A stretch of 64,000 nt of DNA from Rhodobiaceae bacterium. Its GTDB lineage: Bacteria > Pseudomonadota > Alphaproteobacteria > Parvibaculales > Parvibaculaceae. Location of the stretch: positions 55,844 through 119,843 of the forward strand of contig PAZY01000019.1 in NCBI GenBank assembly GCA_002715765.1. Reading direction: 5' to 3'. The first letter of the stretch is position 1; every line of letters begins with the position of its first letter. The notes beneath the pieces were generated by a model. That model was given only the letters and a program-made list of their open reading frames with translations, had not been told where the DNA came from and searched no databases. This document shows, in pieces, positions 37,859 to 64,000 of this stretch. A program made the position numbers and the translations under genes.

Positions 37859-38995
37859 TCAAGCGGTTAGTGTGCTGATGATCTGCCTGATTACGCGCTC
37901 CTGATCCTCCGCACGCATGGACGAACCGGACGGCAAGCAGAGCCCCGTTGCAAACAGGTGGTCAGAAACACTGGTCGCGCCATGGGCCGCGGTGTTGAAA
38001 ACCGGCTGCTCATGCATCGGCTTCCATACGGGCCGACATTCGATATTGTTTTTTTCGGCTGCGGCAATCACTTCCATGGGTGATTTTGCAACCGTTTCCG
38101 GGTCCAGCGTCAGAACACTCAACCAGCGATTGGCCGTGCCGTAATCTGCCTCAGGCATCATGTCCACACCTTCAAGATCTGCGAAGGCCTGGGCGTAGGT
38201 ATCAAAAATCTCACGCCGCCGCGCCACACGTTCGGCCAAAACCTCAAGCTGACCCACACCAACTGCCGCGCACAGGCTTGGCATACGGTAATTGTAACCG
38301 GTTTCTGCATGCTCGTAGTGAGGTACGGGCTGTCTGGCTTGCTGGGAGAGATATCGTGCCCGCGCAATCAGCTCCTCATCGTCGCTCGCCAGCATACCGC
38401 CTCCTGCTGTCGTGATGATCTTGTTGCCATTGAAGGAATAGACTGCCATGCGGGCCCCTTTCCCCGCATGTCTGTCCTTGTACCGTGCGCCAACCGACTC
38501 TGCGGCATCAACCACGACCGGAATGTCGTAAGCATCGCAGGTGGTAACGATCCGATCCAGGTCGCAGGACTGCCCGTACAGATCCACAGGGATGACAACT
38601 TTCGGCAAACGCCCTTCCTTATCGGCTTTACCAAGCTCATCTTTCAGAAGATCGGGGTCAAGCGTCCATGTGTTGGCGGCGACATCCAGAAAACGGGGTA
38701 CGGCACCGCGATACAGGATAGGTGAGACCCCGCCGATGAAAGTGAGATTTGCGACCCAGACCTCATCTCCCGTGGTGACCCCCAACATACGCAGAGCGAT
38801 ATCCATGGCGCCCGTTCCGCTGGACAGGGCTGCGGCTGATTTGTGGCCCGTCAACGCACAAAACTCGTTCTCGAAGCGGGTAATCATGGGGCCCGCCGGC
38901 GCAATGAAATTGCTGTCGAAAACCTCTCCCACGAGGTCGCGTTCGCGGCCTGACATATGAGGCGGTGAGAGGAAAATACGCTCTGGATCACTCAT
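37859..38995 (-). CDS. pglE: DegT/DnrJ aminotransferase, PglE-like (bacillosamine pathway)
   Basis: 378 residues. It begins RIFLSPPHMSGRE and has SNFIAPAGPM, DAAESVGA, and the PLP-binding Lys192 in SFNGNKIITTAGGG. HYEHAETGYNYRMPSLCAAVG and RPVWKPMHEQPVF follow the PglE pattern closely. PglE transfers an amino group from glutamate to UDP-4-keto-6-deoxy-GlcNAc to give the 4-amino sugar, which PglD then acetylates. The pglD- and pglC-like genes lie directly upstream on the same strand, making a pglC-pglD-pglE order. An alternative is GDP-perosamine synthase, because gmd is close, but the motifs fit PglE better. Confidence 0.85.
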   Translation of the reverse strand: MSDPERIFLSPPHMSGRERDLVGEVFDSNFIAPAGPMITRFENEFCALTGHKSAAALSSGTGAMDIALRMLGVTTGDEVWVANLTFIGGVSPILYRGAVPRFLDVAANTWTLDPDLLKDELGKADKEGRLPKVVIPVDLYGQSCDLDRIVTTCDAYDIPVVVDAAESVGARYKDRHAGKGARMAVYSFNGNKIITTAGGGMLASDDEELIARARYLSQQARQPVPHYEHAETGYNYRMPSLCAAVGVGQLEVLAERVARRREIFDTYAQAFADLEGVDMMPEADYGTANRWLSVLTLDPETVAKSPMEVIAAAEKNNIECRPVWKPMHEQPVFNTAAHGATSVSDHLFATGLCLPSGSSMRAEDQERVIRQIISTLTA

Positions 38996-39071
38996 CTTTT
39001 TCTTGCCTTTTTCCTTACCCAGGGTAGCCCCAAGGCGGCACTGAAACCGGTTTGCCCCGCTTCGTCAATCC

Positions 39072-39692
39072 TTACCCGGCATTGCCGGTGGAACGGGCGG
39101 GGACGCCGACCCAGGTCTCCCCGTGCGGGATATCGCGCAGAACAACCGCCCCCGCACCGACTGTCACATCGTCCCCGATCCTCACACCCGGACCGATACT
39201 CGCACCGATCCCGATAAAGGAGCGTGCGCCAACCGTCACGCCACCCGCCAGGTGAGCCCCCGGCGCGATGTGGGCAAAGTCACCGATCCGACAATCGTGG
39301 TCGATCGAACAGGCCGTATTGGCGATGGCATGTGCCCCCAAGCACGTGTCCGGCTGGATCACAACCCCGGCACAAACCAATGTGCCGGCTGCAAGGGCGA
39401 CGGTGGCGTGGACGTGTGCTGCGGGATGCCGCGCAACAGCCCAGTTTGCCCGCCGTGCCGCCACGCGTTCGCGTATTTTGTTGCTGCCAATAGCAATAAA
39501 GGCGCTACGTGTTTCACTATTCCACCAGTCTTCGGGCGGGGTGACACCAATGATTTCGTGGCCAAGCAGCCTGAGCCCCTGTTTTGCGGGATCATCATCA
39601 TAGAGACCTGCGATCGCCTTGCCGTCTGCCGCCAGTGTTGCAAGCGCGACCTTGGCGTGCCCGCCGCCGCCCAATATCCAGATACCGGTCAT
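39072..39692 (-). CDS. pglD: PglD-like sugar N-acetyltransferase
   Basis: 206 residues with GAGGAGG before the ATG. The N-terminal Rossmann-like part carries WILGGGGHAKV and binds the nucleotide sugar. The C-terminal left-handed beta-helix (about 90-200) has hexapeptide repeats and the catalytic His region ACSIDHDCRIGDFAHIAPGA. PglD acetylates the 4-amino group of UDP-4-amino-4,6-dideoxy-GlcNAc to give UDP-diNAc-bacillosamine. The start overlaps the stop of the upstream sugar transferase by four bases. A perosamine N-acetyltransferase would look similar. Confidence 0.87.
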   Translation of the reverse strand: MTGIWILGGGGHAKVALATLAADGKAIAGLYDDDPAKQGLRLLGHEIIGVTPPEDWWNSETRSAFIAIGSNKIRERVAARRANWAVARHPAAHVHATVALAAGTLVCAGVVIQPDTCLGAHAIANTACSIDHDCRIGDFAHIAPGAHLAGGVTVGARSFIGIGASIGPGVRIGDDVTVGAGAVVLRDIPHGETWVGVPARSTGNAG

Positions 39693-40372
39693 ATTGCCTC
39701 CTCGCTTGCGCTCTCCTGCCTGTCTGGCAACCGCCCCCGCGTTGTCCCCGCCTTTACCATCTCGTCGAAGCGCGGCATGGTTTCATGCCCCTCGGCGTTC
39801 ACCCCATCGCGACGCAGTACAGTCCAGGCTGTTCTGGCAAGAATTTTCATATCTCCCCAGAACGATAATGTATCAACATATTCCACATCATGGCGGAAAC
39901 GCGCCTCCCAGGTCTGGGCATTGCGCCCGCTGACCTGAGCGAGCCCCGTCAGCCCCGGTAGCACCTCGTGCCGACGCGCCTGCTCCGGCAGATAGTACGG
40001 CAAGTAAGCCGGCAGGAGTGGCCGTGGTCCCACGAAGCTCATCTCACCTTTTAAAATATTCCAGAGTTCAGGCAGTTCGTCGAGACTGGTCGCACGCAAG
40101 AAGCGTCCGGCCCGCGTCAGACGCGCCGCGTCGGGCAGAAGTTCTCCATCCTCTCCCCGTTCATTGGTCATGGTACGGAATTTCACCAGCCCGAACAGCG
40201 CACCGTTCAAGCCCGGGCGCACCTGACGGAAAAAAACGGGCCGCCCCATCGACAAATAGACCCATATGGCCAGGATACAGATTGGCAGGGCCGCAACCAA
40301 CAAGAGAACGGTGGCAAGCGCGACATCAAACGTCTTTTTCCAAAGCGGTATTGTCCGGCCTTGCCCGCTCAT
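39689..40372 (-). CDS. pglC: Initiating phosphoglycosyl transferase, PglC-like
   Basis: 227 residues from ATG 40372; the frame extends to 40450 but without family similarity. One N-terminal re-entrant hydrophobic segment (about 10-35, [20 protein letters not shown]) anchors the catalytic domain with [37 protein letters not shown] and [12 protein letters not shown]. The DE pair in SLDELPEL is the catalytic Asp-Glu of monotopic phosphoglycosyl transferases. PglC moves phospho-bacillosamine onto undecaprenyl phosphate at the inner membrane and so primes glycan assembly. It overlaps pglD by four bases. The C-terminal tail (about 195-227) is longer than in PglC. Confidence 0.87.
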
Positions 40373-40460
40373 GGTTGTGTCACCCTTCACTGTGCCCAAA
40401 CTGTGCGCCCCCAATCCCCTTGTCGGCGCCACACGCTCTGTGAAAATCACATGCCTGCAG

Positions 40461-49941: not shown

Positions 49942-51348
49942 TTAAAATAACTGCGCGATCAAAGCGACCAAGTTGCGGATAGGGTTAGGATACGTCCCCA
50001 TCTGCATGGTTGCCACATAAATCCCCAACGCGGAGCGTACGGAAAAGCCTACCCATATGAGGTAAGTCCAAGCGATGGCGACGAAAGCAAGCGCAGCTTT
50101 TTTCCTCAAGCCAACTAGCCAGTCGACAGCAAGAGCAACCAGTCCTACTGTTCCTATAACATTGACCCAGACCTGATACCCAAGGTAGGGCATTGAATGC
50201 ATAGGACGGTACTTGACGAGGGAGTGTGTACTTGCCCCAAACAGCACCATGGCAACGCAGAACAACATGACCCAGATGCGCCAGTCCGTCCTTCCCTCCC
50301 ATGCTTTTAACCACGCATAGACCGCGAGCACGAGCAAAAGCGCGAACACGATGCCTGCATAAAACCTCCACAGGAATATGTGGTTTGCGTATGTCAGGAA
50401 TTGCATCTGCGGATGATATCCATGCTGCTGAGCCACAAGCCAGTCCGGCCCCATACGCATGAGCGAAGATGACGACACGAGCTCCGGCGGCAAAACCAAA
50501 GATGCAGCGGTAAAGGAAAAGGCGATCACTTTGGTGACATAGTCATCCCATATCGGGGATAGAAAGCCGTAGAAAAAGACGAGATCCGTCTCTGTCCCCG
50601 CCCCGCTGCCAAACCCCCAGCTCACCTTCGCGATGACGTAAACGACCGTGAGCCCGATGATGAATCCAACCAGTCGCATAAAGCGTGCGGCCGTCTCATA
50701 ATCTACATTCCGCCGTAACGCCATCCACACGGGCAGTGCCACCAGAACCATGACGACAACAACGTCGATCCAGGTTTCATAACCGAGAACAAACAGAACG
50801 GTCGCAATGCCAAAATAGACAAAATCCCGGCGGCGCGTGTGACCCCGGATCAACGCGATCGAAGCATCAATAAACAGCAGGAAATAGGACATCAACAGCC
50901 CATGAGCTGTGGTGCCATGCACAGAATAAACATGGTAGTTGAACGGTACGGTAAAAAACAGCAGAGCTACCGTAGCGGCGAAAACAATGGAGCCCGACAT
51001 CCGCAACGCGACAACAAAGCCGACGACAATCAGTACAGACTGACTGAAAATCAGCACGATGGCAGGATGCAGCACCTGCTGTACGAGCGCGCCGAGCACA
51101 ACCGACGTCGACGCCCATGTTCCATATACTTCGCGCTGCGGTAGCAGATACTCCCACCAGCTTTTCGCATAATAATCTTTGGATATACCGAGGTTGGTAA
51201 AATGATCGGTAATAGAGAACCCATTCTCCAGCACAACGATGTTGAAGCAGTTAACCCCCAGCAACATCGCCAGAAACAGCACGATTCCAGGAAGACGTAC
51301 CTGATACGGACCTATTGGCCAGTGGTGCTTTTGCATACTCAGATTCAT
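49942..51348 (-). CDS. Polytopic membrane protein of unknown function
   Basis: 468 residues from ATG 51348, whose TGATG overlaps the stop of the upstream gene; GTG 51351 is an alternative. About 10-11 membrane helices with a long extracytoplasmic loop between helices 1 and 2 (NGFSITDHFTNLGISKDYYA through LPQREVYGTWAS). The layout (short cytosolic N-terminus, charged first loop, many helices) resembles GT-C-fold glycosyltransferases and GtrII-like glucosyltransferases, but no decisive motif is seen. It is coupled to a membrane-anchored protein and followed by a methyltransferase, all inside the glycan locus. Confidence 0.7.
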   Translation of the reverse strand: MNLSMQKHHWPIGPYQVRLPGIVLFLAMLLGVNCFNIVVLENGFSITDHFTNLGISKDYYAKSWWEYLLPQREVYGTWASTSVVLGALVQQVLHPAIVLIFSQSVLIVVGFVVALRMSGSIVFAATVALLFFTVPFNYHVYSVHGTTAHGLLMSYFLLFIDASIALIRGHTRRRDFVYFGIATVLFVLGYETWIDVVVVMVLVALPVWMALRRNVDYETAARFMRLVGFIIGLTVVYVIAKVSWGFGSGAGTETDLVFFYGFLSPIWDDYVTKVIAFSFTAASLVLPPELVSSSSLMRMGPDWLVAQQHGYHPQMQFLTYANHIFLWRFYAGIVFALLLVLAVYAWLKAWEGRTDWRIWVMLFCVAMVLFGASTHSLVKYRPMHSMPYLGYQVWVNVIGTVGLVALAVDWLVGLRKKAALAFVAIAWTYLIWVGFSVRSALGIYVATMQMGTYPNPIRNLVALIAQLF

Positions 51349-51965
51349 CACTGCGTCCCTTCCGCAAAAACACTCAGCTGTTCAACCCAGGCAACGCGAC
51401 CTCCCGGTGCCTCTGCCTCTACCCCGCTGTTCAACAGAAGTTCCACATAAGCCTTTTCGCCTGTACCGATGACTTCAATACGTTGCTCTCTCCCCTGACC
51501 TTCGATGTCAGTCTGAAAAAGAACCCCGCCTGCGTCGTCCTTAACCCGTATTTGCAGCGAGACGTCATCCAAAGCGGTAATCTGGTGCCGCACTTCGAAC
51601 GGTCTTCCGGCTTCGGGGATAAACGAAGGGGACCGCCAGAGCGCACCTGAGGACCAGGCCCCACTCAACTCGACAAAAAAGCCTCGTGACGGGTGCCTGG
51701 GCATCGACACACCAACGACAAGCGCTTCGACATTCCCGGAGAGCGTCGAATAATAAATTCGCCCTGCCTGCAAATTTTGCAGAGCCACCATTTCAGCTTC
51801 ACGGCGATCCCAATCGGCCAAAATGTCCTTAATCACCGCGCGCGAAGGGCGCTGAATGGATTGAAAATTATCAGGCACCGTCATTATCGCCAATGTAGTG
51901 CCAACAACCAGCGCTACCGCAAAAACAGCTCCCAGCCCCAAAACATCAGTCCGAACAAGCCTCAT
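51348..51965 (-). CDS. Membrane-anchored extracytoplasmic protein of unknown function
   Basis: 205 residues from ATG 51965, chosen because a GGGGGGG stretch lies just upstream. One N-terminal hydrophobic segment (about 7-31, VLGLGAVFAVALVVGTTLAIM) is an anchor or uncleaved signal. The rest is rich in beta-strand-like alternation (ALVVGVSMPRHPSRGFFVEL, DVSLQIRVKDDAGG) and may form a beta-sandwich, as in carbohydrate-binding folds. I recognise no family. Its stop overlaps the start of the polytopic membrane protein, so the two likely work together. Confidence 0.7.
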   Translation of the reverse strand: MRLVRTDVLGLGAVFAVALVVGTTLAIMTVPDNFQSIQRPSRAVIKDILADWDRREAEMVALQNLQAGRIYYSTLSGNVEALVVGVSMPRHPSRGFFVELSGAWSSGALWRSPSFIPEAGRPFEVRHQITALDDVSLQIRVKDDAGGVLFQTDIEGQGREQRIEVIGTGEKAYVELLLNSGVEAEAPGGRVAWVEQLSVFAEGTQ

Positions 51966-52126
51966 CGCCCCCCCTTTTTGTAGCCTTACAGCATACCGAC
52001 ACTGAAACCCATTGCCCCGCCATACCCCAGCCAGTACAATAGCAAATAACACTCTTCTTTTGCTGTCCGTTGGATGGATACACTTTTTTCGTCAGAGCAC
52101 AAACATCATTTCAGCGGTCAAGTATA

Positions 52127-52855
52127 ATGCCAAGTCCTACTTATAGTATTGTCATCCCCTGCTTTAACGAAGGGGTATCCCTGGAAAGTGTCGTTACAGA
52201 CATTATCTCAACCTTCGATGCCTCGGAGTTTGCGGGAGATTACGAGCTTATTGTTGTTGATGACGGTAGCTCGGACAACAGTTGGGATGTCATCGAAACA
52301 CTGACGTCGACACACCCTCATGTTCATGGTGTCCGCCGGAAGGCGAACGGTGGAATGTGGCGGGCCATTCCGTCCGGATTTGCGAAGATTTCGGGCCAGT
52401 TCATGTCGTACCTTCCGGCAGATGGTGAAATCACCGCAACAGAATCCCTGAAACTTATGCGTCTCTCATCGGAAGCGGACATTGTTATTAGCGAACGTAT
52501 TTCTACAGATAACAACGTCAAGAAATCCGTGCGCCCCTGGTATCGGGAGTTTTTGTCTTGGGGTCAGCGCAGTCTGACAAGAATTCTGCTCGGCTGTGAT
52601 ATATCCAAGGCCGAAGGGATATTTCTGATCCGCTGGAGTGTTTTTGCTCCTTACGCAACCGCCCCCCGGGATGACAACGTGCTTTTTCTGGAGCTCCTCG
52701 CTCGTGGCCTGACCGGTCAATACCGTGTTGCGGCCACAACGATGAACTATACGCTGCGACGCAGCGGGCGGACCAAGACTGTAAATCTGCCCCACATACT
52801 GGGGACTTTTTTTGATCTTATCCGCTTGCGCTACCGCCTTCTCAAACAGCGGTAG
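52127..52855 (+). CDS. GT2 family glycosyltransferase, polyprenyl-phosphate type
   Basis: 242 residues from ATG 52127. The GT-A fold shows YSIVIPCFNEGVSLESVV, LIVVDDGSSDNSWDVI and, in place of the usual DxD-containing LDADG, YLPADGEI. It resembles the dolichyl/undecaprenyl-phosphate transferases (DPM1, ArnC) but lacks their C-terminal membrane helices. It would transfer a sugar from a nucleotide donor to a lipid phosphate or lipid-linked glycan at the inner leaflet. Its stop codon overlaps the next gene's GTG by one base (TAGTG). It is the first gene of the plus-strand glycan unit. Confidence 0.87.
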   Translation: MPSPTYSIVIPCFNEGVSLESVVTDIISTFDASEFAGDYELIVVDDGSSDNSWDVIETLTSTHPHVHGVRRKANGGMWRAIPSGFAKISGQFMSYLPADGEITATESLKLMRLSSEADIVISERISTDNNVKKSVRPWYREFLSWGQRSLTRILLGCDISKAEGIFLIRWSVFAPYATAPRDDNVLFLELLARGLTGQYRVAATTMNYTLRRSGRTKTVNLPHILGTFFDLIRLRYRLLKQR

Positions 52856-53835
52856 TGGCTTACAACATGCTTACCCAAACATTGAGACTTGCGCGGCGCT
52901 GGATTCCACCAATCGTCGGCCTCGTTCTGCTAATTGTTCTCTTCGTTCGGAGTGATACGCAGACAGTCTTTGATCTTCTGTGGAATGCTGACAAAGTGCT
53001 GCTGTCTGTGGCCGTTCTCCTGTCAATCGCAAATCTGACGCTTGGTGTATTCCGCTGGAAGACACTATTGCGGCATCTGAACGTCAACGTTTCTACCATC
53101 ACACTGCTCAGGTTTGTTACCGAGGCTATCGCGATCAACCTATTCATTCCCAGCGGCCTTGCAGGAGAGTTCGCACGAGCCTTCAACCTGCATAAAAACC
53201 ATAGCGACGGTGGTGCCGCGTACAGCTCGGTCATCACAGATAAGCTGCTGGGCCTGATCGCGTTTCTGCTACTTGCTATTGCTGCAATTGCATTCGAGTG
53301 GTCACGATTGGAAAACTCCGGGGTGGTTCTCCCTATTTCAATCGTCGGCTTCATCCTGATAACAGGAACAGCCGTTCTCTACAGTCGGCGATTGTCCGCC
53401 CTGCTCGACAAAGCTTTAGCGGTTGTTCCGCAATTGTCGCGCATCTGGACTCCCTTATCTGTCAGCCTGCAGAAGTTCCGGGAAGCACCATTTTTGATCT
53501 GCTACACCTTGTTCATGGCCTTTGCGGCGCATTTTGCGCAAATCCTGTGCACGTGGGTTATAGGCCTCTCTCTCGGCATTGAAATTGGGCTCATGCCCTA
53601 CTTCCTATACGTTCCAATTATTGCCCTGGTCGCGGCACTGCCCATCTCCAACTCCGGTCTTGGTGTACGAGAATCAAGCTTCGTCTTTCTTCTGGCGCTG
53701 GTTGGTGTGTCTGCGGAATCAGCGCTGGCTTTATCTCTTATCTTTACTTGCCTGGCGCTCATCATTCCAGGCACGGTCGGGCTTGCGCTTTTAGCCCTTG
53801 GCCCCAGTCTCAAAGCAGATCCGCCAGCGAACTAA
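52855..53835 (+). CDS. Flippase-like membrane protein (LPG synthase transmembrane family)
   Basis: 326 residues, about eight membrane helices. GVFRWKTLLRHLNVN, FIPSGLAGEFARAFNLHKN and ISNSGLGVRESSFVFLL are typical of the UPF0104/lysyl-phosphatidylglycerol synthase transmembrane region. Stand-alone members next to GT2 genes are often thought to translocate polyprenyl-linked sugars; direct proof is lacking for most. The start is GTG 52855 overlapping the GT2 stop; ATG 52867 is an alternative. The gap to the next gene is 87 bases without a clear terminator. Confidence 0.85.
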   Translation: MAYNMLTQTLRLARRWIPPIVGLVLLIVLFVRSDTQTVFDLLWNADKVLLSVAVLLSIANLTLGVFRWKTLLRHLNVNVSTITLLRFVTEAIAINLFIPSGLAGEFARAFNLHKNHSDGGAAYSSVITDKLLGLIAFLLLAIAAIAFEWSRLENSGVVLPISIVGFILITGTAVLYSRRLSALLDKALAVVPQLSRIWTPLSVSLQKFREAPFLICYTLFMAFAAHFAQILCTWVIGLSLGIEIGLMPYFLYVPIIALVAALPISNSGLGVRESSFVFLLALVGVSAESALALSLIFTCLALIIPGTVGLALLALGPSLKADPPAN

Positions 53836-53922
53836 AGTCATATTTTTCATCAGGTGGGCCGAAAAGCCTTTAGTTACTCCTGAAAACTGCTAGTTTTGCG
53901 CCATCAAGCTGAAGGGGAAAGT

Positions 53923-55791
53923 ATGTGCGGCGTCGCTGGTTATTTTAATCTGGATGGCCATCCAGCCGATGACACTGCCATTGCCGGCATGGTCAAAGCC
54001 ATTAACCACAGAGGTCCCGATTCACAGGGTCAGTGCGTTGAGGGAGCCCTTGCCCTCGGACACACACGGTTATCCATTATTGACCTAACCGACCAAGCCA
54101 GACAGCCAATGGAGAGTCAGGATGGCCGGTATGTTGTTTCCTATAATGGGGAAATCTACAATTTCCGAGAACTGCGTTCAGAGCTCGAGGCCGCCGGTGA
54201 AAAATTCCGCTCACACTCCGATACTGAAGTTCTTCTGGTCAGCATTAAGGTTTGGGGTGTCCGCGCGCTCAACCGATTCAACGGTATGTTTGCCTTTGCG
54301 CTGTGGGACCGGTGGGAAAAAAAGCTGACCTTGGCGAGAGACCGTTACGGGATCAAACCTCTCTACTACACATTCGTTGGCAAGACGCTTATTTTCGGGT
54401 CTGAAATCAAGGCACTACTTGCGCATCCACAGGTAGGCACCTCGCTCAATCCGCACGGCTTGGCCGAATACCTTTCCTTCCAGAACTTCTTCTCCAAAAA
54501 CACTCTTTTCAAAAACATCCACCTGTTCCCCCGAGCGTCATATGCAGAATTTCGGATCGGCAATGACCCCGTCGTCCGGAAACAGCAGTACTGGGATTAT
54601 CAGTTTGAGGAACCAGGCCACATTCACTCTGACAGTCAGTATGAGGAAGAAGGCCGACACCTCTTAGAGCAGGCGGTAAAACGCCAATTGGTTTCAGATG
54701 TCTCCATTGGTTCCTATCTTTCGGGTGGTATGGATTCCGGTGCGATCACATCCATCGCGGCTCGCAGCTTACCGCATATGCACACCTTTACATGCGGGTT
54801 CGATCTGAGTTCAGCGTCGGGGATGGAACTCTATTTTGACGAGCGCGATGCAGCCGAGCGAATGTCCTACCTGTGCAAAACAGAGCACTATGAAGTCGTT
54901 CTCAAAGCCGGCGACATGGAGCGGGCCTTACCCCGACTTGCTTACCATCTGGAAGAACCGCGGGTCGGACAATCTTATCCAAACTACTACGCGGCGCGGC
55001 TTGCTTCGAAATTCGGAAAAGTAGTCCTGTCGGGCGCAGGAGGTGACGAAATCTTTGGCGGATACCCATGGCGCTATCACCGTGCACTCACAACGCCAAC
55101 AACCTCGTTTACAGATGACTATTATTCGTTCTGGCAGCGTCTTGTTCCGACCGAACAGTTTGACAGCCTGCTCTCGCCAATCAAGTCTGACATCCGCGAT
55201 TATTCGGCTCGCGAAACCTTTTCCTCGGTTTTTCCATCTCAGGTTGCTTCCAGTCACTCAACAACGGATGCAATCAACGCCTGCCTGTACTTTGAGGCAT
55301 CGACCTTTCTACAAGGCCTTCTCATCGTGGAAGACAAGATAAGCATGTCGCACGGCCTCGAAACGCGGGTCCCGTTTCTCGACAACGACCTTGTCGACTT
55401 TGCGATGAAGATTCCCATTCACATGAAGATCCGGCACCTCAAAGATACGACACGCCTAGACGAAAACGAAATTGCGAAAGGCAGCAAACACTTCCAAAGA
55501 ACAAAAGACGGGAAAGTCCTTCTGCGGAATGTTGCATCAAGCTTTCTACCCAAAGAATTTGCCAAAAGAGAGAAGCAAGGCTTTTCCGCGCCAGATGCCA
55601 GCTGGTTCAAGGGTGAAAGTATAGACTTTGTACGGAATACGATCCTCGACCAGGACGCCAAGATTTTTGAATTCCTTGACTACAAGACGACCTCCACGCT
55701 CGTCGAATCTCATCTAAGTGGACAGCAGAACAGGCGCCTTCTTATATGGTCGCTTCTTAACCTGGAAGCTTGGTGTGAACAGTTTCTCTGA
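53923..55791 (+). CDS. Asparagine-synthetase-like amidotransferase (glycan locus, copy 2)
   Basis: 622 residues from ATG 53923, so that Cys2 is the N-terminal nucleophile (MCGVAGYF) once Met is removed; AAGGGG lies upstream. The glutaminase domain has LGHTRLSIIDLT and YNGEIYNFRELR. The synthetase domain has LSGGMDSG (267-273 for SGGMDSG), GAGGDEIFGGYPWRY, and TRVPFLDNDLVDFAM. Like copy 1 it probably amidates a uronic acid or other sugar carboxylate. The two copies differ substantially (for example SGGLDSS versus SGGMDSG), so they may act on different sugars. Confidence 0.88.
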   Translation: MCGVAGYFNLDGHPADDTAIAGMVKAINHRGPDSQGQCVEGALALGHTRLSIIDLTDQARQPMESQDGRYVVSYNGEIYNFRELRSELEAAGEKFRSHSDTEVLLVSIKVWGVRALNRFNGMFAFALWDRWEKKLTLARDRYGIKPLYYTFVGKTLIFGSEIKALLAHPQVGTSLNPHGLAEYLSFQNFFSKNTLFKNIHLFPRASYAEFRIGNDPVVRKQQYWDYQFEEPGHIHSDSQYEEEGRHLLEQAVKRQLVSDVSIGSYLSGGMDSGAITSIAARSLPHMHTFTCGFDLSSASGMELYFDERDAAERMSYLCKTEHYEVVLKAGDMERALPRLAYHLEEPRVGQSYPNYYAARLASKFGKVVLSGAGGDEIFGGYPWRYHRALTTPTTSFTDDYYSFWQRLVPTEQFDSLLSPIKSDIRDYSARETFSSVFPSQVASSHSTTDAINACLYFEASTFLQGLLIVEDKISMSHGLETRVPFLDNDLVDFAMKIPIHMKIRHLKDTTRLDENEIAKGSKHFQRTKDGKVLLRNVASSFLPKEFAKREKQGFSAPDASWFKGESIDFVRNTILDQDAKIFEFLDYKTTSTLVESHLSGQQNRRLLIWSLLNLEAWCEQFL

Positions 55792-55809: not shown

Positions 55810-56694
55810 ATGCGAATTCTAATCACCGGCCTCTCCGGCTTTCTGGGACAGAAGTTACTCTCAAAGTTACCTGCTGACTGGGAGGTGGTCGCCCTTTCCC
55901 GCAGCACATTAGCGGCGCCACCAGTAGTTACACAAATCAAGATGGATCTTACAGACGCGGACGCCTATCGCTCTCTGCCCAGTCAGATTGACGCCGTACT
56001 TTCCCTCGCACAGTCACGTGCCTACAGTGTCTTTCCGGGGCAGACCGGTGATGTCTATGATGTTAACGTCACAGCCAGCGTGCGGCTGGGCGACTACGCG
56101 GCGCGGGCCAACGCCAAATCCTTTACGTTCTTTTCAACCGGCAGCGTCTACGAACCCTACACAAAGCCCTTGCGCGAAACCGATATGGAGCTTGCACCAC
56201 GATCACTCAACGGTGTTTCGAAACTCGCCGCGGAGCGTGCACTCAGCCTGTACCGTGACATTTTTCCGGTATGCTGCCTTCGGCCATTTTTCCCCTTTGG
56301 GCCTCATCAAACGCGTAGCATCGTTCCAACACTTTTCGAGCGCATCAACACGGGAACCGCTGTTCAGCTTGACGGAAAGGACGGCCTGACGTTTTCACCC
56401 GTGTATGTCGATGATCTAATCAATATAACAGTCCGCGCAATTGAAGATCATTGGCGTGGGGCGGTGAATGTGGCGGGTCTGCAAACCGTAACTGTACGCG
56501 AACTCTCCGAAGCCATTGCGCGGGCACTGGGTGTTGAACCTGTTTTTTCACAGTCTTCGTCCAGCGCATTGTCCCTTCTACCTGAAACAGATCACCTCTA
56601 TTCTTTGTATTCGCCCGCATCCATGACAAATTTCGACGATGCGCTTTCGCAAACCATCGCTTCTTTCAGAAATAGAAAAGCTCCTTCAATATGA
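55810..56694 (+). CDS. NAD-dependent epimerase/dehydratase-like protein, catalytic Tyr replaced
   Basis: 294 residues; the ATG has AGGAAA upstream. NAD-binding motif GLSGFLGQKLL, FFSTGSVYEPYT for the Ser/Thr, and RPFFPFGPHQ fit the extended SDR family. The active-site YxxxK is NGVSK: Asn134 stands where Tyr is expected, while Lys138 is kept. It may use another residue as base or act as a non-catalytic or binding protein. The stop overlaps the start of the CgeB-like gene by four bases, and an amidotransferase precedes it by 18 bases. Confidence 0.83.
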   Translation: MRILITGLSGFLGQKLLSKLPADWEVVALSRSTLAAPPVVTQIKMDLTDADAYRSLPSQIDAVLSLAQSRAYSVFPGQTGDVYDVNVTASVRLGDYAARANAKSFTFFSTGSVYEPYTKPLRETDMELAPRSLNGVSKLAAERALSLYRDIFPVCCLRPFFPFGPHQTRSIVPTLFERINTGTAVQLDGKDGLTFSPVYVDDLINITVRAIEDHWRGAVNVAGLQTVTVRELSEAIARALGVEPVFSQSSSSALSLLPETDHLYSLYSPASMTNFDDALSQTIASFRNRKAPSI

Positions 56695-58601
56695 CACAGA
56701 AAAACATCCTATTTCTTTCGAGCGCTACCAACAGCGTCGCGGCGACTTCTCATCTGGAGCACCTTGCTACGTTCAAGCAATACTCCAAGCATAATTTTTT
56801 CTACCACAATTTTGTTTATTCGATTGAGCCTGACTTTGACTTCACTCCATTCGATGTCGTCGTCATCGCGCACAATTTCTGGCCCGAAATACTGAGCGAA
56901 GCTCAACGCGCTGCGATACGTAACTGTTCCGCTCTGAAAATTCAGTTCCTACAGGATGAATATCAGTATGTGAGAACGATAAATGGATACCTGGAAGAGA
57001 TGGGTATCAACATCATGTTTACCTGCGTCGCAGAGGCTGACTTCGATACTTTTTATCCGCGCTCGATCATGAAGTCACTGATGAGCGTCGAGCCCAACCT
57101 GACGGGTTACGTTTCAGACAGACTTAGTGATCCAAAGAACTTCTACACGGGTCCGCGGTCAACCGATGTTGGATATCGTTCAAGAGTCAGCCCCTTTTTC
57201 CTCGGTGAGATCGGCTACGAAAAATACGCGATTGCCGAGAAATTCAAGACTGTTTCCGAACAGTCAGGCCTAACGTACAATATTTCCGTCAAAGAAGAAG
57301 ACCGCATCTATGGTTCGGATTGGATAAAATTCCTACAGTCGACCCGCGTACAACTGGGAACGCCAAGCGGCGCGAGCGTCGTCGATATGGACGGTTCGAT
57401 TGTTCAGGCAGAGCTCGACTTCCGGCATGAGCACCCTCACGCACCTTTCTCTGAATTCAGTGATAAACACCTTAAGGATGTCGATGGGAAACTCGTCATC
57501 GATACGGTCTCCCCTCGTTTCTTCGAATATGCCGCAACGGGTTCCGCCATGGTGCTACTCGAGGGGCACTATGGTGGCATTCTGGTGCCGGACCAGCATT
57601 ACATTCCCTTGCGGAAAGACTATTCAAACATTGACGATGTCATCCAAAAAATTTCAGACACATCATATTGCAAAGCGCTGGCGGACCGCGCCCATGATGA
57701 TCTCATCAAGAGTAAACGCTATTCCTATGAGAATTTCGTGGTCCGGTTTGACGGCGTTGTCGATCGCTATGCCACAAAAGCGGCCAGCGCCACTCCGCCA
57801 AGCCAGAAGGCGTTCAATGCACAATTGATCGAAACCCACGATCAGGCACTTTTCTTTACGGAGGATGGCTGGTCGGTGGCCAACACCCCGACGGGCAAAC
57901 ACATTAAGGAGCAGCAGTCCCGCGCCAAAACCCTTCGCGCGATGCCGCTCATCGGCCCTTCACTGCGCCGCACCGGCGGAGATACGGTCGCCGTTTTCAA
58001 GCATGTTAAACTGGCGTTTCGATTGCTACGACACTTGCCGGAGTATCGCTCCCTTGGTCTTCTGTGGTTTTGGAACAGAAAGCCCCTCGGCAATCAGGAT
58101 ATTGTTGCGTTCAGCCGCGATCTTGTGAAGCTGGGCATCATACAGTCGGGGCAAGCGGGTTTCACTTATACCGGCAAACCGTTTCACACCCGGGCGAAAG
58201 TCGATCCGGAAAATGGCAAACTTATTCTTTCCAGCTTCGAAGCAGAACCGTCCGCTATTTGCGTGATGACAGAGTCTATTGGTGACAGCGACATGCACCC
58301 GCCGGACTTCTGGCTTGATGTCCTGCAACAATTTCGATCCGGGACGCTCGACGGTGTATATTGGGACATGAGCAGTATTTTTCCGCTCCTGCAATTTGGC
58401 GTCGCCACGATTGTCCCCTTTACAGCTCACGGTGAAGGACTTGAACTGCGTTCGTCACCTGACCAGTACTTCCATTTTCCTGCTCTGGATGCGCTGCTGA
58501 AGCTCGACCCTGAATCTGTTCTTTACGCCATTCGTTTGGCATTGAGTGCGTCATTCGGACCGGACCAGAACGCACTTATTTCCGCGTTTGAACAAGGCTG
58601 A
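56691..58601 (+). CDS. CgeB-like glycosyltransferase with C-terminal extension (copy 2)
   Basis: 636 residues. Residues about 1-370 parallel the protein at 44804-46540: FLQDEYQYVRTINGYLEEMG, VGYRSRVSPFFLGEIG, RIYGSDWIKFLQSTRVQLG and VSPRFFEYAATGSAMVLLEG, HYIPLRKDYSNIDDVI. The C-terminal GT-B domain is of the Glyco_trans_1_2 type. Residues about 380-636 form an extra region without a recognised motif. It starts inside the upstream gene's stop (ATGA) and is 3 bases before the deacylase gene. Sugar specificity is unknown. Confidence 0.77.
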   Translation: MTQKNILFLSSATNSVAATSHLEHLATFKQYSKHNFFYHNFVYSIEPDFDFTPFDVVVIAHNFWPEILSEAQRAAIRNCSALKIQFLQDEYQYVRTINGYLEEMGINIMFTCVAEADFDTFYPRSIMKSLMSVEPNLTGYVSDRLSDPKNFYTGPRSTDVGYRSRVSPFFLGEIGYEKYAIAEKFKTVSEQSGLTYNISVKEEDRIYGSDWIKFLQSTRVQLGTPSGASVVDMDGSIVQAELDFRHEHPHAPFSEFSDKHLKDVDGKLVIDTVSPRFFEYAATGSAMVLLEGHYGGILVPDQHYIPLRKDYSNIDDVIQKISDTSYCKALADRAHDDLIKSKRYSYENFVVRFDGVVDRYATKAASATPPSQKAFNAQLIETHDQALFFTEDGWSVANTPTGKHIKEQQSRAKTLRAMPLIGPSLRRTGGDTVAVFKHVKLAFRLLRHLPEYRSLGLLWFWNRKPLGNQDIVAFSRDLVKLGIIQSGQAGFTYTGKPFHTRAKVDPENGKLILSSFEAEPSAICVMTESIGDSDMHPPDFWLDVLQQFRSGTLDGVYWDMSSIFPLLQFGVATIVPFTAHGEGLELRSSPDQYFHFPALDALLKLDPESVLYAIRLALSASFGPDQNALISAFEQG

Positions 58602-58604
58602 CCG

Positions 58605-59348
58605 ATGCACAAAGATGCCGTTATGCTGACATTCGATGTTGACTGGGCACCTGACTGGATGGTCGCCGAGGTTGCTAACCTGTTGACCAACCGCGGCGTG
58701 GCTGCGACATGGTTTATCACTCATGAGAGCCCCGTTCTGGAGGATCTGAAGTCGGAAAAGCTGTTTGAGCTGGGTTGGCATCCTAACTTTTTTCCCGGTA
58801 GCAGCCATGGAGAAAATGTCGAGGACGTTCTTGAGTTCTGCCGAAACCTCGTTCCCGAAGGGCGCAGCGTTCGAGCACACTCATTGTTCCAGTCCGAACG
58901 GCACCTGCAAACGCTGGTCACGAACTTCGATATCCGAAATGACTGCTCCGTATACCTGCCTACGAGGGAAGTACTGGGCCCTCATCAAGTTCGTTATGAA
59001 GAAGAGGGACGCCCCCTCAGACGCCTCCCCCATTTTTTTCAAGACAATATGAACATTCTCGGCGACCGGCGTTGGGATGCTGAAGATGCCTGGTTCCACC
59101 GAAAAGGCGCGAAGACCTTCTGCCTGCATCCAATTCATATATGTCTGAACACCAACCGGATGGAGCAATATGAGAAACTCAAAGCTCTTGGGCCGCTACC
59201 ATCCATCACACGGACGGCCCTCTCGGACATAGACCGGGATGGCACTGGTACACGCAGCCTGTTTCTGGGATTATTGGAAACCTATGATCATCGCTTGTTT
59301 TCGCAAGTCGATGCCTACTGTGAGGCAGTCTTTGGAGGTCATCCGTGA
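58605..59348 (+). CDS. NodB-type polysaccharide deacetylase/deacylase
   Basis: 247 residues. Family marks are VMLTFDVDWAPDWM (catalytic and metal Asp), GVAATWFITHESPV, GWHPNFFPGSSHGE and FCLHPIHICLN (C-terminal His). Proteins of this family remove N-acyl groups from sugars; ArnD, a relative, removes formyl from a lipid-linked amino sugar. No signal peptide is present, so the enzyme should work in the cytosol. Its stop overlaps the GTG start of the formyltransferase gene (GTGA), which ties the two functions closely. Confidence 0.8.
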   Translation: MHKDAVMLTFDVDWAPDWMVAEVANLLTNRGVAATWFITHESPVLEDLKSEKLFELGWHPNFFPGSSHGENVEDVLEFCRNLVPEGRSVRAHSLFQSERHLQTLVTNFDIRNDCSVYLPTREVLGPHQVRYEEEGRPLRRLPHFFQDNMNILGDRRWDAEDAWFHRKGAKTFCLHPIHICLNTNRMEQYEKLKALGPLPSITRTALSDIDRDGTGTRSLFLGLLETYDHRLFSQVDAYCEAVFGGHP

Positions 59349-60280
59349 GCGCACCATTGCGAGTTGCGGTGCTTGGTCGAACAGAGATGCTGCTTGCCGC
59401 CGCGAAAGAAATTTCAACGAACGGACATACGATTGCACTCGTCGCCACGTCCGCTGGATCAGATAACTATCTCGCTGGACCAAGCGATTTTGAGCAACTA
59501 GCCCAAGACCATAATGCTGCTTTCATCCGCGGAACAAAGTTAGATTCCGAACCGGCGACATCCCTCCTGCGGGAGATAAAGTGCGACGTCGCTATCTCGA
59601 TAAATTGGCCCGGGCTACTCCCGGCATCAGTGAGAGAGAATTTTCGCTTCGGCATATTCAATGCACACCCCGGAGACCTTCCTCGATACAAGGGAAATGC
59701 CTGCCCCAACTGGGCCATCCTGAATGATGAACCTCATATCGGCCTTTGCATTCATCAAATGGTGGATGAACTGGATGCCGGCCCCGTCGCTGCCCGCTCC
59801 AAGCTTCCGTTGTCAGATAGTGTCGACGTCGAGATGGTCTATGGATGGCTACGCGAGGAAGTACCAGCTCTCTTTGGCGCGCTGATCAACCAGCTGTCAG
59901 ATGGCACTTTGTCTCTTACTCCACAACCAACAGATGTAAATCTTTCCCTGCGCTGTTTCCCGCGGCGGCCTGAAGATTCCCGTATTGACTGGAATATGCC
60001 AAGTGTATCTGTCATGCGTCTTATTCGCGCTTCGACACGGCCCTTTTCGGGAGCGACATGTTTTCTGGATAATACGCGTATTCAGATATGGCGGGCGCAG
60101 CCATACACGTGGCCTACACCTTATCTCGCCATGCCGGGGCAGGTTCTGGGAAGAATAGAGGGGGACCCCATTATTGAAACCGGGGAAAACCCCATTCGTA
60201 TTCTCGAGGCGACTCTCTTTGAGAATCAGGAAAGTGCCATCCCCCTCATATTGAGCAGTCTTCGAAATCGGCTGACCTAG
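59345..60280 (+). CDS. Sugar N-formyltransferase (methionyl-tRNA formyltransferase-like)
   Basis: 311 residues, GTG start coupled to the deacylase. The catalytic triad of 10-formyl-THF transferases is present: N106 and H108 in FNAHPGDLPRYKGN and D144 in VDELDAGPV. The C-terminal domain contains SRIDWNMPSVSVMRLIRA, PFSGATCF, as in Fmt and ArnA. In a glycan locus it most likely formylates an amino sugar on a nucleotide or lipid carrier, using 10-formyltetrahydrofolate. It is not the initiator-tRNA enzyme, judging from context. It ends the plus-strand unit, 27 bases before a convergent gene. Confidence 0.88.
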   Translation: MSAPLRVAVLGRTEMLLAAAKEISTNGHTIALVATSAGSDNYLAGPSDFEQLAQDHNAAFIRGTKLDSEPATSLLREIKCDVAISINWPGLLPASVRENFRFGIFNAHPGDLPRYKGNACPNWAILNDEPHIGLCIHQMVDELDAGPVAARSKLPLSDSVDVEMVYGWLREEVPALFGALINQLSDGTLSLTPQPTDVNLSLRCFPRRPEDSRIDWNMPSVSVMRLIRASTRPFSGATCFLDNTRIQIWRAQPYTWPTPYLAMPGQVLGRIEGDPIIETGENPIRILEATLFENQESAIPLILSSLRNRLT

Positions 60281-60307
60281 CATGCGCCGGCCAGCGCTTC
60301 CAGGTTC

Positions 60308-61966
60308 CTAGTGAAGCACGCCCTCTTCATGGTAAGCGGAGGGGTGATCCAACGGAAATTTTCCGGCCATCAATCGATCGTAAACCTTTTCAAAACGGGC
60401 TGCACATGCCTCCGCCGAGTGCCATTTGACCGCATATGCGCGACTGGCTTCACCGATCTGTTTCCTGGCTTCAGGGTTTTCAATCAGGTATTTCAGACGA
60501 TCGTAAACTGTCGTCGGGCTTGCGTCGATCAACGGGCATTCATCAAGCGATTCTGATCTGCCTACAGATGATGGCTGCTCTCTCACCAGCCGTGTAATGG
60601 TCGGCTTGCCTAACATCATACATTCGCGCGAACTCGCGCCGTAACGACCATACACAATCTGGTCCACAACTATATCTGCCTGAACCTGGTAGTATTTCAT
60701 ATCAGCGCTGTGTACATCGTGCACAAATACCAGCTTCACCGGGTACCCCTCACTTTTCAGACGATCGATTGCCTGAAGAACCGCTGGCGTACCTTTGATG
60801 TTCCGGTCGTTTACATTCCGGGTTTTATAATTTCCAACCGAATGGAATATCAGGATTTCTCCTTCCTTCTTTTCAAAGCGCATATGTTGAGGCACCTCCA
60901 GGTCGGGGTGCCACAATTCATGGTCCAAACAGAAGGTGAGCGGCTCTCTGAAAGCACGCTTGGTCTTGCGAGAAGCATTGACGACCCAGTCGCCTTCAAT
61001 AGCGTACAGGTCTGCAAGTGCTCCATACATCTCGCCAATAGCAAGATTCTTTGGATCAGAACAAACGACCGGATTGTTTTGCCATGCGCACGCGTTGCAT
61101 ACGCCATTCGTATATTCATTAAACTCGGTCTGCCCGGTACCCGTCAGGCAACCGCTCATCGAAACACCGAGCTTTATCCCCTTGCTTCGAAGGTAAATGA
61201 AATCCCACGGAACCGCATCTCTTGCAGACGTTTGATAACACTCTTCAAACAAGCTCGTCAGATTTTCGTTGTGCCAGAACAACATTTTTATATTGTCCTC
61301 TATATATTTTAATAGAGAGATTGAGTTCCTTCTACTTTCCATCAACTCACCACTCCAGATATTCACGTCCTCCCCGTGGTAATACTGCCGACTAGGGCTA
61401 TCAGGCGGCTCGGACGCTACTGAAAGTGCATTCCATCCTCTCTTACGCAACGCAGCCGCAAGATAGTAGTGGTGGTAGTACGAGTAATGCAGAAACACCA
61501 CCGAACGTTGACCAGGTTTTGTTTTGGGCAATGCATCATATAGCTCCTCATGATATGGGTGCTGTTCGAAGTAGCGGCTTCTTTTGAAAACACGAAGCCT
61601 TTCCACAACGGATTTCCGATGCCCAAAGTGCTGATGCACTCCTTTTCGAAGATCCAACGTTGCAAGACTTTTCCATCTACGTCGCAATACGGCTTGTACA
61701 TATGACGGAAGAAACGGCAGAATGAATGCAGCACCAAACCTCATATAGTTCTTCAGCACCACCTCCGGAAATAGTCCAGCTGTTTTCTTGAAATAACTCT
61801 CAAATGCATATGGTGGACACACAGCGTATCGATCAACAAACCTTTGCTGAGCCCAAACGATAATAGGATGTAGAAAAGCCGGACTTGCAATTGCAAGCTT
61901 GCGTACCCAAAGCTTCGCCTTGCGTGGAAGATACTCTGGCGGCACTGGTGTTGCCTTAGTCCGCAA
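60308..61966 (-). CDS. Glycosyltransferase-like protein (GT-B C-domain)
   Basis: About 552 residues from TTG 61966, favoured because AGGGAG lies eight bases upstream; ATG 62002 would overlap the upstream gene by 47 bases and has no ribosome site. The N-terminal 150 residues are basic and unassigned. SVVFLHYSYYHHYYLAAALRK begins the first Rossmann-like domain. GYPVKLVFVHDVHS, VVDQIVYGRYGASSRECMMLGKP and the end AYAVKWHSAEACAARFEKVY match the C-domain of GT4-like transferases. A Cys-containing stretch (SGCLTGTGQTEF, NGVCNACAW, VCSDP) in the middle could bind a metal. AT-rich codon use suggests acquisition. Confidence 0.72.
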   Translation of the reverse strand: MRTKATPVPPEYLPRKAKLWVRKLAIASPAFLHPIIVWAQQRFVDRYAVCPPYAFESYFKKTAGLFPEVVLKNYMRFGAAFILPFLPSYVQAVLRRRWKSLATLDLRKGVHQHFGHRKSVVERLRVFKRSRYFEQHPYHEELYDALPKTKPGQRSVVFLHYSYYHHYYLAAALRKRGWNALSVASEPPDSPSRQYYHGEDVNIWSGELMESRRNSISLLKYIEDNIKMLFWHNENLTSLFEECYQTSARDAVPWDFIYLRSKGIKLGVSMSGCLTGTGQTEFNEYTNGVCNACAWQNNPVVCSDPKNLAIGEMYGALADLYAIEGDWVVNASRKTKRAFREPLTFCLDHELWHPDLEVPQHMRFEKKEGEILIFHSVGNYKTRNVNDRNIKGTPAVLQAIDRLKSEGYPVKLVFVHDVHSADMKYYQVQADIVVDQIVYGRYGASSRECMMLGKPTITRLVREQPSSVGRSESLDECPLIDASPTTVYDRLKYLIENPEARKQIGEASRAYAVKWHSAEACAARFEKVYDRLMAGKFPLDHPSAYHEEGVLH

Positions 61967-63377
61967 TATTCTGTCTCCCTGACTTTTCAAGATGCGCGTC
62001 ATATTGCGCCATCACGGCCCGTGCCCTTCCCATAACTGCTCGCTCAATTCGCTGGCGCGGAGGCATAGCCTCCGGCAGCCACCACCCGGGATGTGTAAGG
62101 ATCTGAAGATTGCGCCCCTCGCCAGACTCTATAACGTCCAGAATCCTCTTGTGACGCCAGTGTCCGTTTGAATCAGAACAATATTCATAGCTTTCCTTAA
62201 GCGGCGCGCCGTAGGCATTGACCAATCCACCAATCTCCGGGGCATCAAATGCCATCATGTTTCCGGCCGTCGGGTCATGAAAGCTGACAGCCTTCAGTTC
62301 AACGCCGACATTATCTTCAACAATCTGCTTTTCCACGGACACTCGGGCGTTAAGGTCCGCTGCCGTCCATTCAATGTCATAAAATCCTGCATCAAAATGA
62401 AGGCCAATATCATGCCCTCCACTAACAATTTCCTTGAGGATATTGACGCTCTCCTTTTCGAGCGTGTTGTAGAATGGCAGTCGCAAGCCAACGAAGTATG
62501 TGGCTTTTACTCCCTCTTCTGTCTCTATCTGAGAAAGCCGCAAACTTCTGTGCAGGGAGTAGTCGATGTCATGGCGCCACAGAACATGGGGTCCTTCTGA
62601 TCGATCCCGGTAAGAAGAAAATTCATATCCTCTGGATAGCGCAGCCCGTATCATTCCACGATAAGAATCTTCGGTAAAATCAACCCAGGCTTCACTTGCC
62701 TGACCAGCATGTTCATCTACTTCTGATAATGCGAAGGTCCGCCCCCCCACATCCATACGCAGGTTGGTATATCCCTCGCTTCTCGTCGCCCTGATCCGTT
62801 TCTCCACTTCCCGCTCATCCATCAACGGATGAATGCGACATAGCTCAACAAAATCGCGTCTTGTTGATTTCCTACCAGCCCATTTCAGGTTCGCGGCCGG
62901 CTCCAAATTGCCTGTCTTCGGCCACTCCGTAACGACGCACTGGTACAAATCCTGGCCACATTTTTCCCCAAGCTGTCTTAACTCACCGGGTGTTACATCC
63001 GGGCCAACAGGGCATAATTTTTCCCGTAAAATCGTCCCCGCATCAACACGCGGTGTCATAAGATGAGCGGTTGCCCCATACTCTTCTGTACCATTGTAAC
63101 AAGCAAAATGATGAGGATCTCTTCCAGGGAAGTCCTTGCTCGCAGGATGAATATTAATTGCTCTGCCTTGCAATGCATCAAGAATGGATGCAGGAACGAT
63201 TACACCGGTACAGAAGGAAACCAGAAGTGTCGAACTCCAATCCGCGGCATCAAAGGTCATCAGTTCCTCTAGCGTCGAAACTGTTGAAATCTTTCGGAAC
63301 CCTCCGCCTTCGCGGGCCGTTTTTGCAAGCTGCGGCAACAATGATGGGTCGCTAAGAATAGTCAAATCCCAGTTCAC
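61956..63377 (-). CDS. Formyltransferase - polysaccharide deacetylase fusion
   Basis: 473 residues from GTG 63377, which overlaps the WbqC-family stop (GTGA). Residues about 1-185 are formyltransferase-like with N75 and H77 in INIHPASKDFPGRDPH and D112 in TPRVDAGTI. Residues about 260-470 are a NodB-type deacylase of the WbmS-like group: RHDIDYSLHRSLRLSQIET (268-286) and GGHDIGLHFDAG, AVSFHDPT, LTHPGWW. Both active-site sets look intact. The order is opposite to the separate deacylase-formyltransferase gene pair at 58605-60280. Likely role: exchange or transient protection of N-acyl groups on an amino sugar. Confidence 0.82.
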   Translation of the reverse strand: MNWDLTILSDPSLLPQLAKTAREGGGFRKISTVSTLEELMTFDAADWSSTLLVSFCTGVIVPASILDALQGRAINIHPASKDFPGRDPHHFACYNGTEEYGATAHLMTPRVDAGTILREKLCPVGPDVTPGELRQLGEKCGQDLYQCVVTEWPKTGNLEPAANLKWAGRKSTRRDFVELCRIHPLMDEREVEKRIRATRSEGYTNLRMDVGGRTFALSEVDEHAGQASEAWVDFTEDSYRGMIRAALSRGYEFSSYRDRSEGPHVLWRHDIDYSLHRSLRLSQIETEEGVKATYFVGLRLPFYNTLEKESVNILKEIVSGGHDIGLHFDAGFYDIEWTAADLNARVSVEKQIVEDNVGVELKAVSFHDPTAGNMMAFDAPEIGGLVNAYGAPLKESYEYCSDSNGHWRHKRILDVIESGEGRNLQILTHPGWWLPEAMPPRQRIERAVMGRARAVMAQYDAHLEKSGRQNIAD

Positions 63378-64000
63378 ACCAGCCCCCAATCTGTCGTCTT
63401 CCAGTCTTCTACCAATAGAAGATAGTCCATTATCGAGAGCCCTGGTACAAATGTAGCAAGGTCCGCATATGGTCGAGGTCTAAAATTCTGATAGACCAGT
63501 TCTATTCCTGCCGCCTCGAATGCATCATCATCCTGATAGCCCCCCGCACCGCCACCGCAGAGATATGTATCTGCGCCTACGGCCCGACATACATCAATTA
63601 ACAGGTTTGTGCTGGAAGTGTCTAAACTCAGGTCTGCCTGCGAAACGAAATGTGTTTTTAGCTGAAGCGTTTCACTTATCCGCATGATTGCATTTTTGTT
63701 GAAATCAGAAATGCCTTCCGCTTCATAACGGATCAGCGGCTCCAGAACCGCCTGGGCGGCCTCAAAATTGTCTGCTGTGTGGTAGGATTCTTCCAAACTC
63801 CGCAGCAGACGCCCCCGCCAATCCGTCTCATTGGAAATCTGGACTTCGCTTATTTTTGTTCCCAGAGGCGCTTTTTTGACAGGACAAGACACCCATTTGG
63901 CATCGCCGCCAAGGTTCATCTTCACCCTGTTGCTCATCGACGCCATGCTCTTGCTACCTGAGCGCGGATAAGCCACATCATCTAGAAATACGAAGACGTC
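63374..64000 (-). CDS. WbqC-family protein (5' partial)
   Basis: 208 residues visible. The frame is open to the right edge, reading DVFVFLDDVAYPRSGSKSM, so the true start lies beyond base 64000 and roughly the first 20-30 residues are missing. KMNLGGDAKWVSCPVKK, then LIDVCRAVGADTYLCGGGAGGYQDD and LSIMDYLLLVED near the end match the WbqC family (about 230 residues). WbqC proteins occur in many O-antigen and capsule loci; their biochemical role is not settled, with acyl or amino-acid modification of sugars suggested by context. It is coupled to the formyltransferase-deacylase fusion. Confidence 0.85.
   Translation of the reverse strand, partial: DVFVFLDDVAYPRSGSKSMASMSNRVKMNLGGDAKWVSCPVKKAPLGTKISEVQISNETDWRGRLLRSLEESYHTADNFEAAQAVLEPLIRYEAEGISDFNKNAIMRISETLQLKTHFVSQADLSLDTSSTNLLIDVCRAVGADTYLCGGGAGGYQDDDAFEAAGIELVYQNFRPRPYADLATFVPGLSIMDYLLLVEDWKTTDWGLV

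Follow-up and report, generated by a model that had tools for sequence, protein, structure and literature searches.

Gene content of the locus

The window analyzed here is a stretch of 64,000 nucleotides that encodes a predicted formyltransferase and a predicted NodB-type deacylase twice, once as a coupled gene pair (58605-60280, forward strand) and once, in the reverse order, as a single fused protein (61956-63377, reverse strand). The initial annotation had described both arrangements within an O-antigen locus, in agreement with our domain assignments from Pfam and AlphaFold/Foldseek, and an ORF check confirmed its coordinates for the pair, the GTGA overlap and the fused gene.

The first gene of the pair (58605-59348, forward strand) encodes a WbmS-family NodB-like deacylase of 247 residues. 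It belongs to the WbmS-like family PF22537 (182.1 bits, cut-off 27; E-value 1.3e-53) and matches WbmS of PDB entry 3hft, which bears the name deacetylase, with an E-value of 2e-34. Its score against the CE4 family PF01522 is 18.1 bits, below the cut-off of 23.1, and a PF01522 profile search of the genome recovered none of the deacylases described here. The second gene (59345-60280, forward strand) shares the GTGA at the end of the first ORF and is translationally coupled to it. Its product is an ArnA/Fmt-like formyltransferase of 311 residues with both an N-domain (PF00551, 58.4 bits, cut-off 26.1, E-value 1e-15) and a C-domain (PF02911, E-value 4e-14), and ArnA chains are its closest solved structures (E-values of about 1e-19 to 3e-21). 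Neither a signal peptide nor a transmembrane segment was found in the WbmS homologue or in this lone formyltransferase. A formyltransferase adjoins WbmS in 10 of 13 WbmS loci. On plasmid 2 of Lawsonia intracellularis (locus L173), a WbmS homologue (31%) adjoins asnB, DegT and radical SAM genes, and no annotated formyltransferase lies nearby.

Three forward-strand genes precede wbmS: an asparagine-synthase-like amidotransferase (53896-55791; TIGR01536, 450 bits), a short-chain dehydrogenase/epimerase (55810-56694; PF01370) and a large glycosyltransferase-like protein of 636 residues (56691-58601; weak PF13524 match; 56% identical to its homologue in a genome of the same genus). On the reverse strand, a GT4-like glycosyltransferase (60308-62002; weak PF00534 match) follows the fused gene, and a WbqC-family gene that runs past the window end (63374-64000; PF08889, 148.9 bits) lies upstream of the fused gene and is coupled to it. 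Among the 80 deacylase loci described below, homologues of the amidotransferase, the dehydrogenase and the GT4-like protein occur in 48, 17 and 35, respectively, and WbqC is present in 44 of 79-80.

Past the window, the contig encodes Wzt, Wzm, an asparagine synthase, three short-chain dehydrogenases (SDRs), a DegT aminotransferase, a fused WlbA-WlbB-like protein, a nucleotide-sugar dehydrogenase and WecB. Two of the SDRs match WbmH (2q1w, E-value 8e-157) and WbmF (2pzj, E-value 4e-142), and the third is WbmG-like. As judged from WbmF, WbmH, the WbmG-like protein, Wzm/Wzt, the Wlb enzymes and the asparagine synthases, the predicted O-antigen cluster is of the Bordetella wbm type. The likeness to the Bordetella wbm locus, drawn from PDB sequences rather than gene by gene, covers the WbmS homologue (3hft), the WbmF, WbmH and WbmG-like SDRs and the amidotransferases, whereas the fused formyltransferase-deacylase sets the window apart. 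The Bordetella wbm locus was not among the matches when 268 genomes around an Alcaligenaceae MAG were searched with PF22537. Synteny with the same-genus genome (G003) extends over the locus at least from window position 37859 on, with identities of 50% and 55% for the coupled pair and 53% for the fused protein. Such conservation of the whole locus and of the fused protein indicates that the latter is under selection and is not an assembly artefact.

The fused formyltransferase-deacylase protein

The fused protein has 473 residues, and the GTG start codon of its gene overlaps the WbqC stop codon as GTGA. Its formyltransferase domain covers about residues 1-205 (62763-63377, reverse strand). Residues 62-149 match PF00551, the sole Pfam family matched there, with 48.8 bits (cut-off 26.1), which places the N-terminal half inside the formyltransferase family as originally annotated, and the catalytic triad N75/H77/D112 is kept in the fused proteins and the split partners. 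The best Foldseek matches of the whole model are the sugar N-formyltransferases 6v2t, 4q12 and 6v33, and ArnA is also matched. The only hydrophobic window of the protein (residue 48) falls inside this folded domain. NCBIfam contains no equivalog above cut-off for the 58605, 59345 or fused protein.

The C-terminal deacylase domain (residues 228-473; 61959-62696, reverse strand) was placed in the NodB/CE4 fold by structure prediction and comparison. No significant Pfam or NCBIfam match was obtained for this half even with lax limits; it matched neither PF22537 nor PF01522 and by profile belongs to neither family. Profile-profile comparison aligned it with the WbmS family over motifs 1-2 only (probability 62%), the first motif being D-x-D in both, and sequence profiles of its family gave only marginal matches in the PDB. 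AlphaFold, supplied with an alignment of 41 relatives, modeled the whole protein with a pLDDT of 92.4 and the C-terminal domain alone with a pLDDT of 93.8 and a pTM of 0.91. Foldseek matched this domain to CE4/NodB structures with a probability of 1.00 (best E-value 7.4e-6; ArnD 8t0j, 1.7e-4). Because the TM-scores are modest (0.4-0.5), the domain is a distant member of the NodB/CE4 fold.

The motifs R-H-D-x-D (268-272), GLHFD (325-329), H367, D402 and H429 are kept in nearly all relatives. The metal-site Asp/His stretches noted by the initial annotation are accordingly present in the fused domain, but its metal triad is incomplete: Asp272 and His327 are found, but the HxxxH motif of CE4 enzymes is without its second His, both here and in WbmS-type relatives. 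The domain shares its fold and the Asp and His motif residues with CE4/NodB polysaccharide deacetylases and differs from them in the missing second metal His, the lack of a Pfam match, a predicted cytoplasmic location and linkage to nucleotide-sugar genes. Its catalytic competence is therefore putative.

Distribution of the fusion and of the deacylase family

A scan of genome contigs with a single-protein query returned nothing, and an alignment-based query was used instead. In GTDB species genomes, this query found 299 relatives of the deacylase half, the best 80 of which were analyzed. Ten full fusions in other genomes (L081-L090) are among these best 80, nine in alphaproteobacteria, including Hyphobacterium and Bradyrhizobium, and one in a Rickettsiella MAG. 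Across a set of 385 alphaproteobacterial genomes, the fused form occurs in this genus only, and the halves are separate elsewhere. Four of the best 80 relatives have the formyltransferase as a split neighbor (Polaromonas L103, Sedimenticola L104 and Bacteroidia L116 and L125), and the split order, deacylase then formyltransferase, is the reverse of that in the fusion. Polaromonas carries both pairs side by side in the order WbmS, formyltransferase, deacylase, formyltransferase, WbqC, glycosyltransferase and Wzt, which indicates that the two-pair layout recurs. On a tree built by a quick method, with many open forks, the fusion must have been gained or lost four times, and strongly supported branches force at least two of these events.

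The deacylase-half family, for which neither Pfam nor NCBIfam has a model, extends to Bacteroidota, Legionella, Lachnospiraceae, Actinomycetota and Nitrososphaerota, and to haloarchaea as plasmid matches. A homologue of the formyltransferase half is found on a plasmid of Vibrio anguillarum serovar O2. The suggestion that the arrangement is new goes too far. The coupled pair falls within the WbmS family of Bordetella, and ten other genomes share the fused order, but our literature search, which is no proof of absence, turned up neither an account of a fused formyltransferase-deacylase nor one of the biochemistry of WbmS. The fused architecture is, as far as this search shows, an undescribed variant of known component parts.

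Exchange of the acyltransferase partner

Which enzymes accompany the deacylase where the formyltransferase is missing? In 39 loci, WbqC and the deacylase are encoded on the same strand no more than 3 kb apart. The slot between the two holds a formyltransferase in 19 of these loci, as part of the same chain in 9 (L089 included, although its N-terminus was missed in the ORF call), as a separate gene in 8 and alongside a GNAT acyltransferase in 2; a GNAT acyltransferase alone occupies it in 10, and nothing was recognized in the remainder. A tree of 29 tips requires at least ten changes of partner type, and formyltransferase/GNAT swaps are seen between deacylases that are 64-79% identical, the closest being the Bacteroidota deacylases of L116 (formyltransferase) and L123 (GNAT) at 79%. 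In Bradyrhizobium/Methylobacteriaceae (L093 and L095), a GNAT protein stands in place of the fused formyltransferase domain, yet in the tree their deacylases cluster with those of the fused proteins (99% SH-aLRT). A hexapeptide acyltransferase is encoded within 2.3 kb of the deacylase in about 20 further loci. A GNAT or hexapeptide acyltransferase neighbors the deacylase as often as a formyltransferase does. On a Sphingomonas plasmid (L027:5233-9568), a deacylase homologue is located among amidotransferase/HisH/HisF acetamidino-modification genes, a context that suggests another N-substituent partner.

Proposed function and alternative explanations

We propose, with a probability of roughly 0.5 and on the basis of gene content, domains, catalytic residues, operon conservation and partner exchange, that the locus contains two cytoplasmic modules that exchange the N-acyl group of an amino-sugar uronate of the wbm-type O antigen. 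The NodB-type deacylase would strip an N-acyl group, most likely N-acetyl, from the amino sugar, and the formyltransferase would then place a formyl group from 10-formyl-tetrahydrofolate (formyl-THF) on the freed amine. WbmS and the 59345 formyltransferase would perform these steps as coupled gene products, and the 61956-63377 protein would act as a fused two-step enzyme. The substrate is likely to be a nucleotide- or lipid-linked 2,3-diamino-uronic acid (amide) or its chain cap, and the modification would precede Wzm/Wzt export. Formyl-THF is cytoplasmic, and together with the lack of signal peptides and transmembrane segments in WbmS and the lone formyltransferase, this argues for a cytoplasmic step. 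The occurrence of both split adjacent pairs and fused proteins points to joint action of the two activities.

Several described structures are consistent with N-formylation in such a setting. In Bordetella, WbmF, WbmG and WbmH are the proposed route to UDP-L-GalNAc3NAcA (PMC2279256), and the end of the O chain is formylated (PMC7504554, citing Preston 2006). The V. anguillarum O2 antigen carries an N-formyl-alanyl group (PMC10059132), and P. aeruginosa O6 has GalN(formyl)A, an N-formyl surface sugar (PMC10609480). The enzymology behind the O6 residue was not found described in our literature search.

Sugar N-formyltransferases, including WbkC, VioF, Rv3404c, WbtJ and PseJ, share the fold and Asn/His/Asp triad of the fused N-terminal domain and place permanent N-formyl groups on surface sugars. 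Their substrates are amines installed by aminotransferases, and they are not known to carry a deacylase domain. Some observations speak against the proposed exchange. The product of WlbA/C has a free 3-amine until WlbB acts, and formylation at that position would need no deacylase. Moreover, 22 of 79 loci show no recognized formyltransferase or hexapeptide gene within 2.3 kb of the deacylase, although some of the 22 have a GNAT protein. Alternatively, the transferase and the deacylase of a module could each use its own amine of a sugar that carries several: the transferase would acylate an aminotransferase-made amine, and the deacylase would unmask another that is left free or modified by other enzymes. 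We regard this explanation as unlikely on balance, yet it deserves serious weight. A dehydratase/SDR and a DegT aminotransferase that could supply a fresh amine lie near the deacylase in 47-48 of 80 loci, and formyltransferase/GNAT exchange fits it equally well. A swap on the same amine would even be futile if acetyl is what the GNAT partner transfers, so that in those operons the two enzymes may use different amines. However, fusion and repeated adjacency favor consecutive steps, and the only aminotransferases seen in the window are a WlbC-type enzyme and a PglE-like enzyme at 37859-38995.

The other scheme that the initial annotation had offered was a transient formyl group as in the Arn (L-Ara4N) pathway, in which the formyltransferase tags a nucleotide amino sugar, a GT2 enzyme loads the tagged sugar onto undecaprenyl phosphate, the formyl group is taken off by the deacylase and a flippase exports the product. 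Both systems draw on the ArnA formyltransferase family and the NodB fold of ArnD; ArnA is the nearest solved structure to the 59345 enzyme, ArnD (8t0j) is a fold match of the deacylase, and GT2 (52070) and flippase-like (52855) genes were confirmed in the window by Pfam/NCBIfam and are syntenic in the same-genus genome. Nevertheless, homologues of the GT2 gene occur in 3 and those of the flippase gene in 1 of 80 deacylase loci (lower bounds, given an E-value limit of 1e-5 and 8-kb flanks), and we rejected the two genes as module components on this basis. The GT2 protein scores 46.3 bits against the NCBIfam ArnC model (cut-off 529), the formyltransferase scores 105.5 against the ArnA equivalog (cut-off 777), and by sequence both deacylases fall outside the ArnD family, with no NCBIfam ArnD match. 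The Arn pathway uses separate enzymes, whereas the module of the window has an exchangeable transferase, whose place is taken in many loci by a GNAT or hexapeptide acyltransferase, and no linkage to GT2 or flippase genes. Such exchangeability argues against a dedicated deformylase and for a module that deacylates and then re-acylates. Of the two schemes offered, the Arn-like one thus appears quite improbable, and replacement of N-acetyl by N-formyl on a surface glycan would be the better. Only slightly less improbable is that the fused C-terminal domain is a NodB-fold protein with a role in binding, scaffolding or a different hydrolysis. The missing second His of HxxxH, the absence of the family from curated libraries and the existence of CE4 pseudoenzymes, with BA3943 among the fold matches, are in line with such a role, but D270, D272, H327, D329, H367 and H429 are kept across phyla, and WbmS-type relatives also lack that His and have a PDB entry that is named a deacetylase.

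More tentatively than the proposed exchange at this locus, a single polypeptide may combine N-deacetylase and N-formyltransferase activities and represent a widespread, modular family that pairs one shared type of deacylase with interchangeable formyl-, GNAT and hexapeptide acyltransferases to diversify O-antigen N-acylation. The fused enzyme would offer a testable bacterial route for replacing N-acetyl with N-formyl on surface sugars, an antigenic modification. The partner exchange suggests a possible general rule whereby one deacylase family, present in many phyla and absent from Pfam, works with swappable acyltransferases that set the N-acyl pattern of the O antigen.

Other features of the locus

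The block at 49942-53835, syntenic in the same-genus genome, encodes a polytopic membrane protein of 469 residues without a Pfam match, a 234-residue protein with a single transmembrane segment, the GT2 protein and the flippase, which is of the LPG-synthase-TM type. It is possibly a separate branch for undecaprenyl-phosphate-linked or other lipid-linked sugars. The genes at 37859-40450 encode the PglE-like aminotransferase, a PglD/NeuD-like acetyltransferase and an initiating sugar phosphotransferase, and likely provide a diacetyl-bacillosamine start of the glycan. Just past the window (contig positions of about 124736-125677), the WbmG-like SDR gene has an in-frame stop after codon 68 and is either a pseudogene, possibly reflecting O-antigen loss, or the result of a sequencing error; its same-genus homologue is open.
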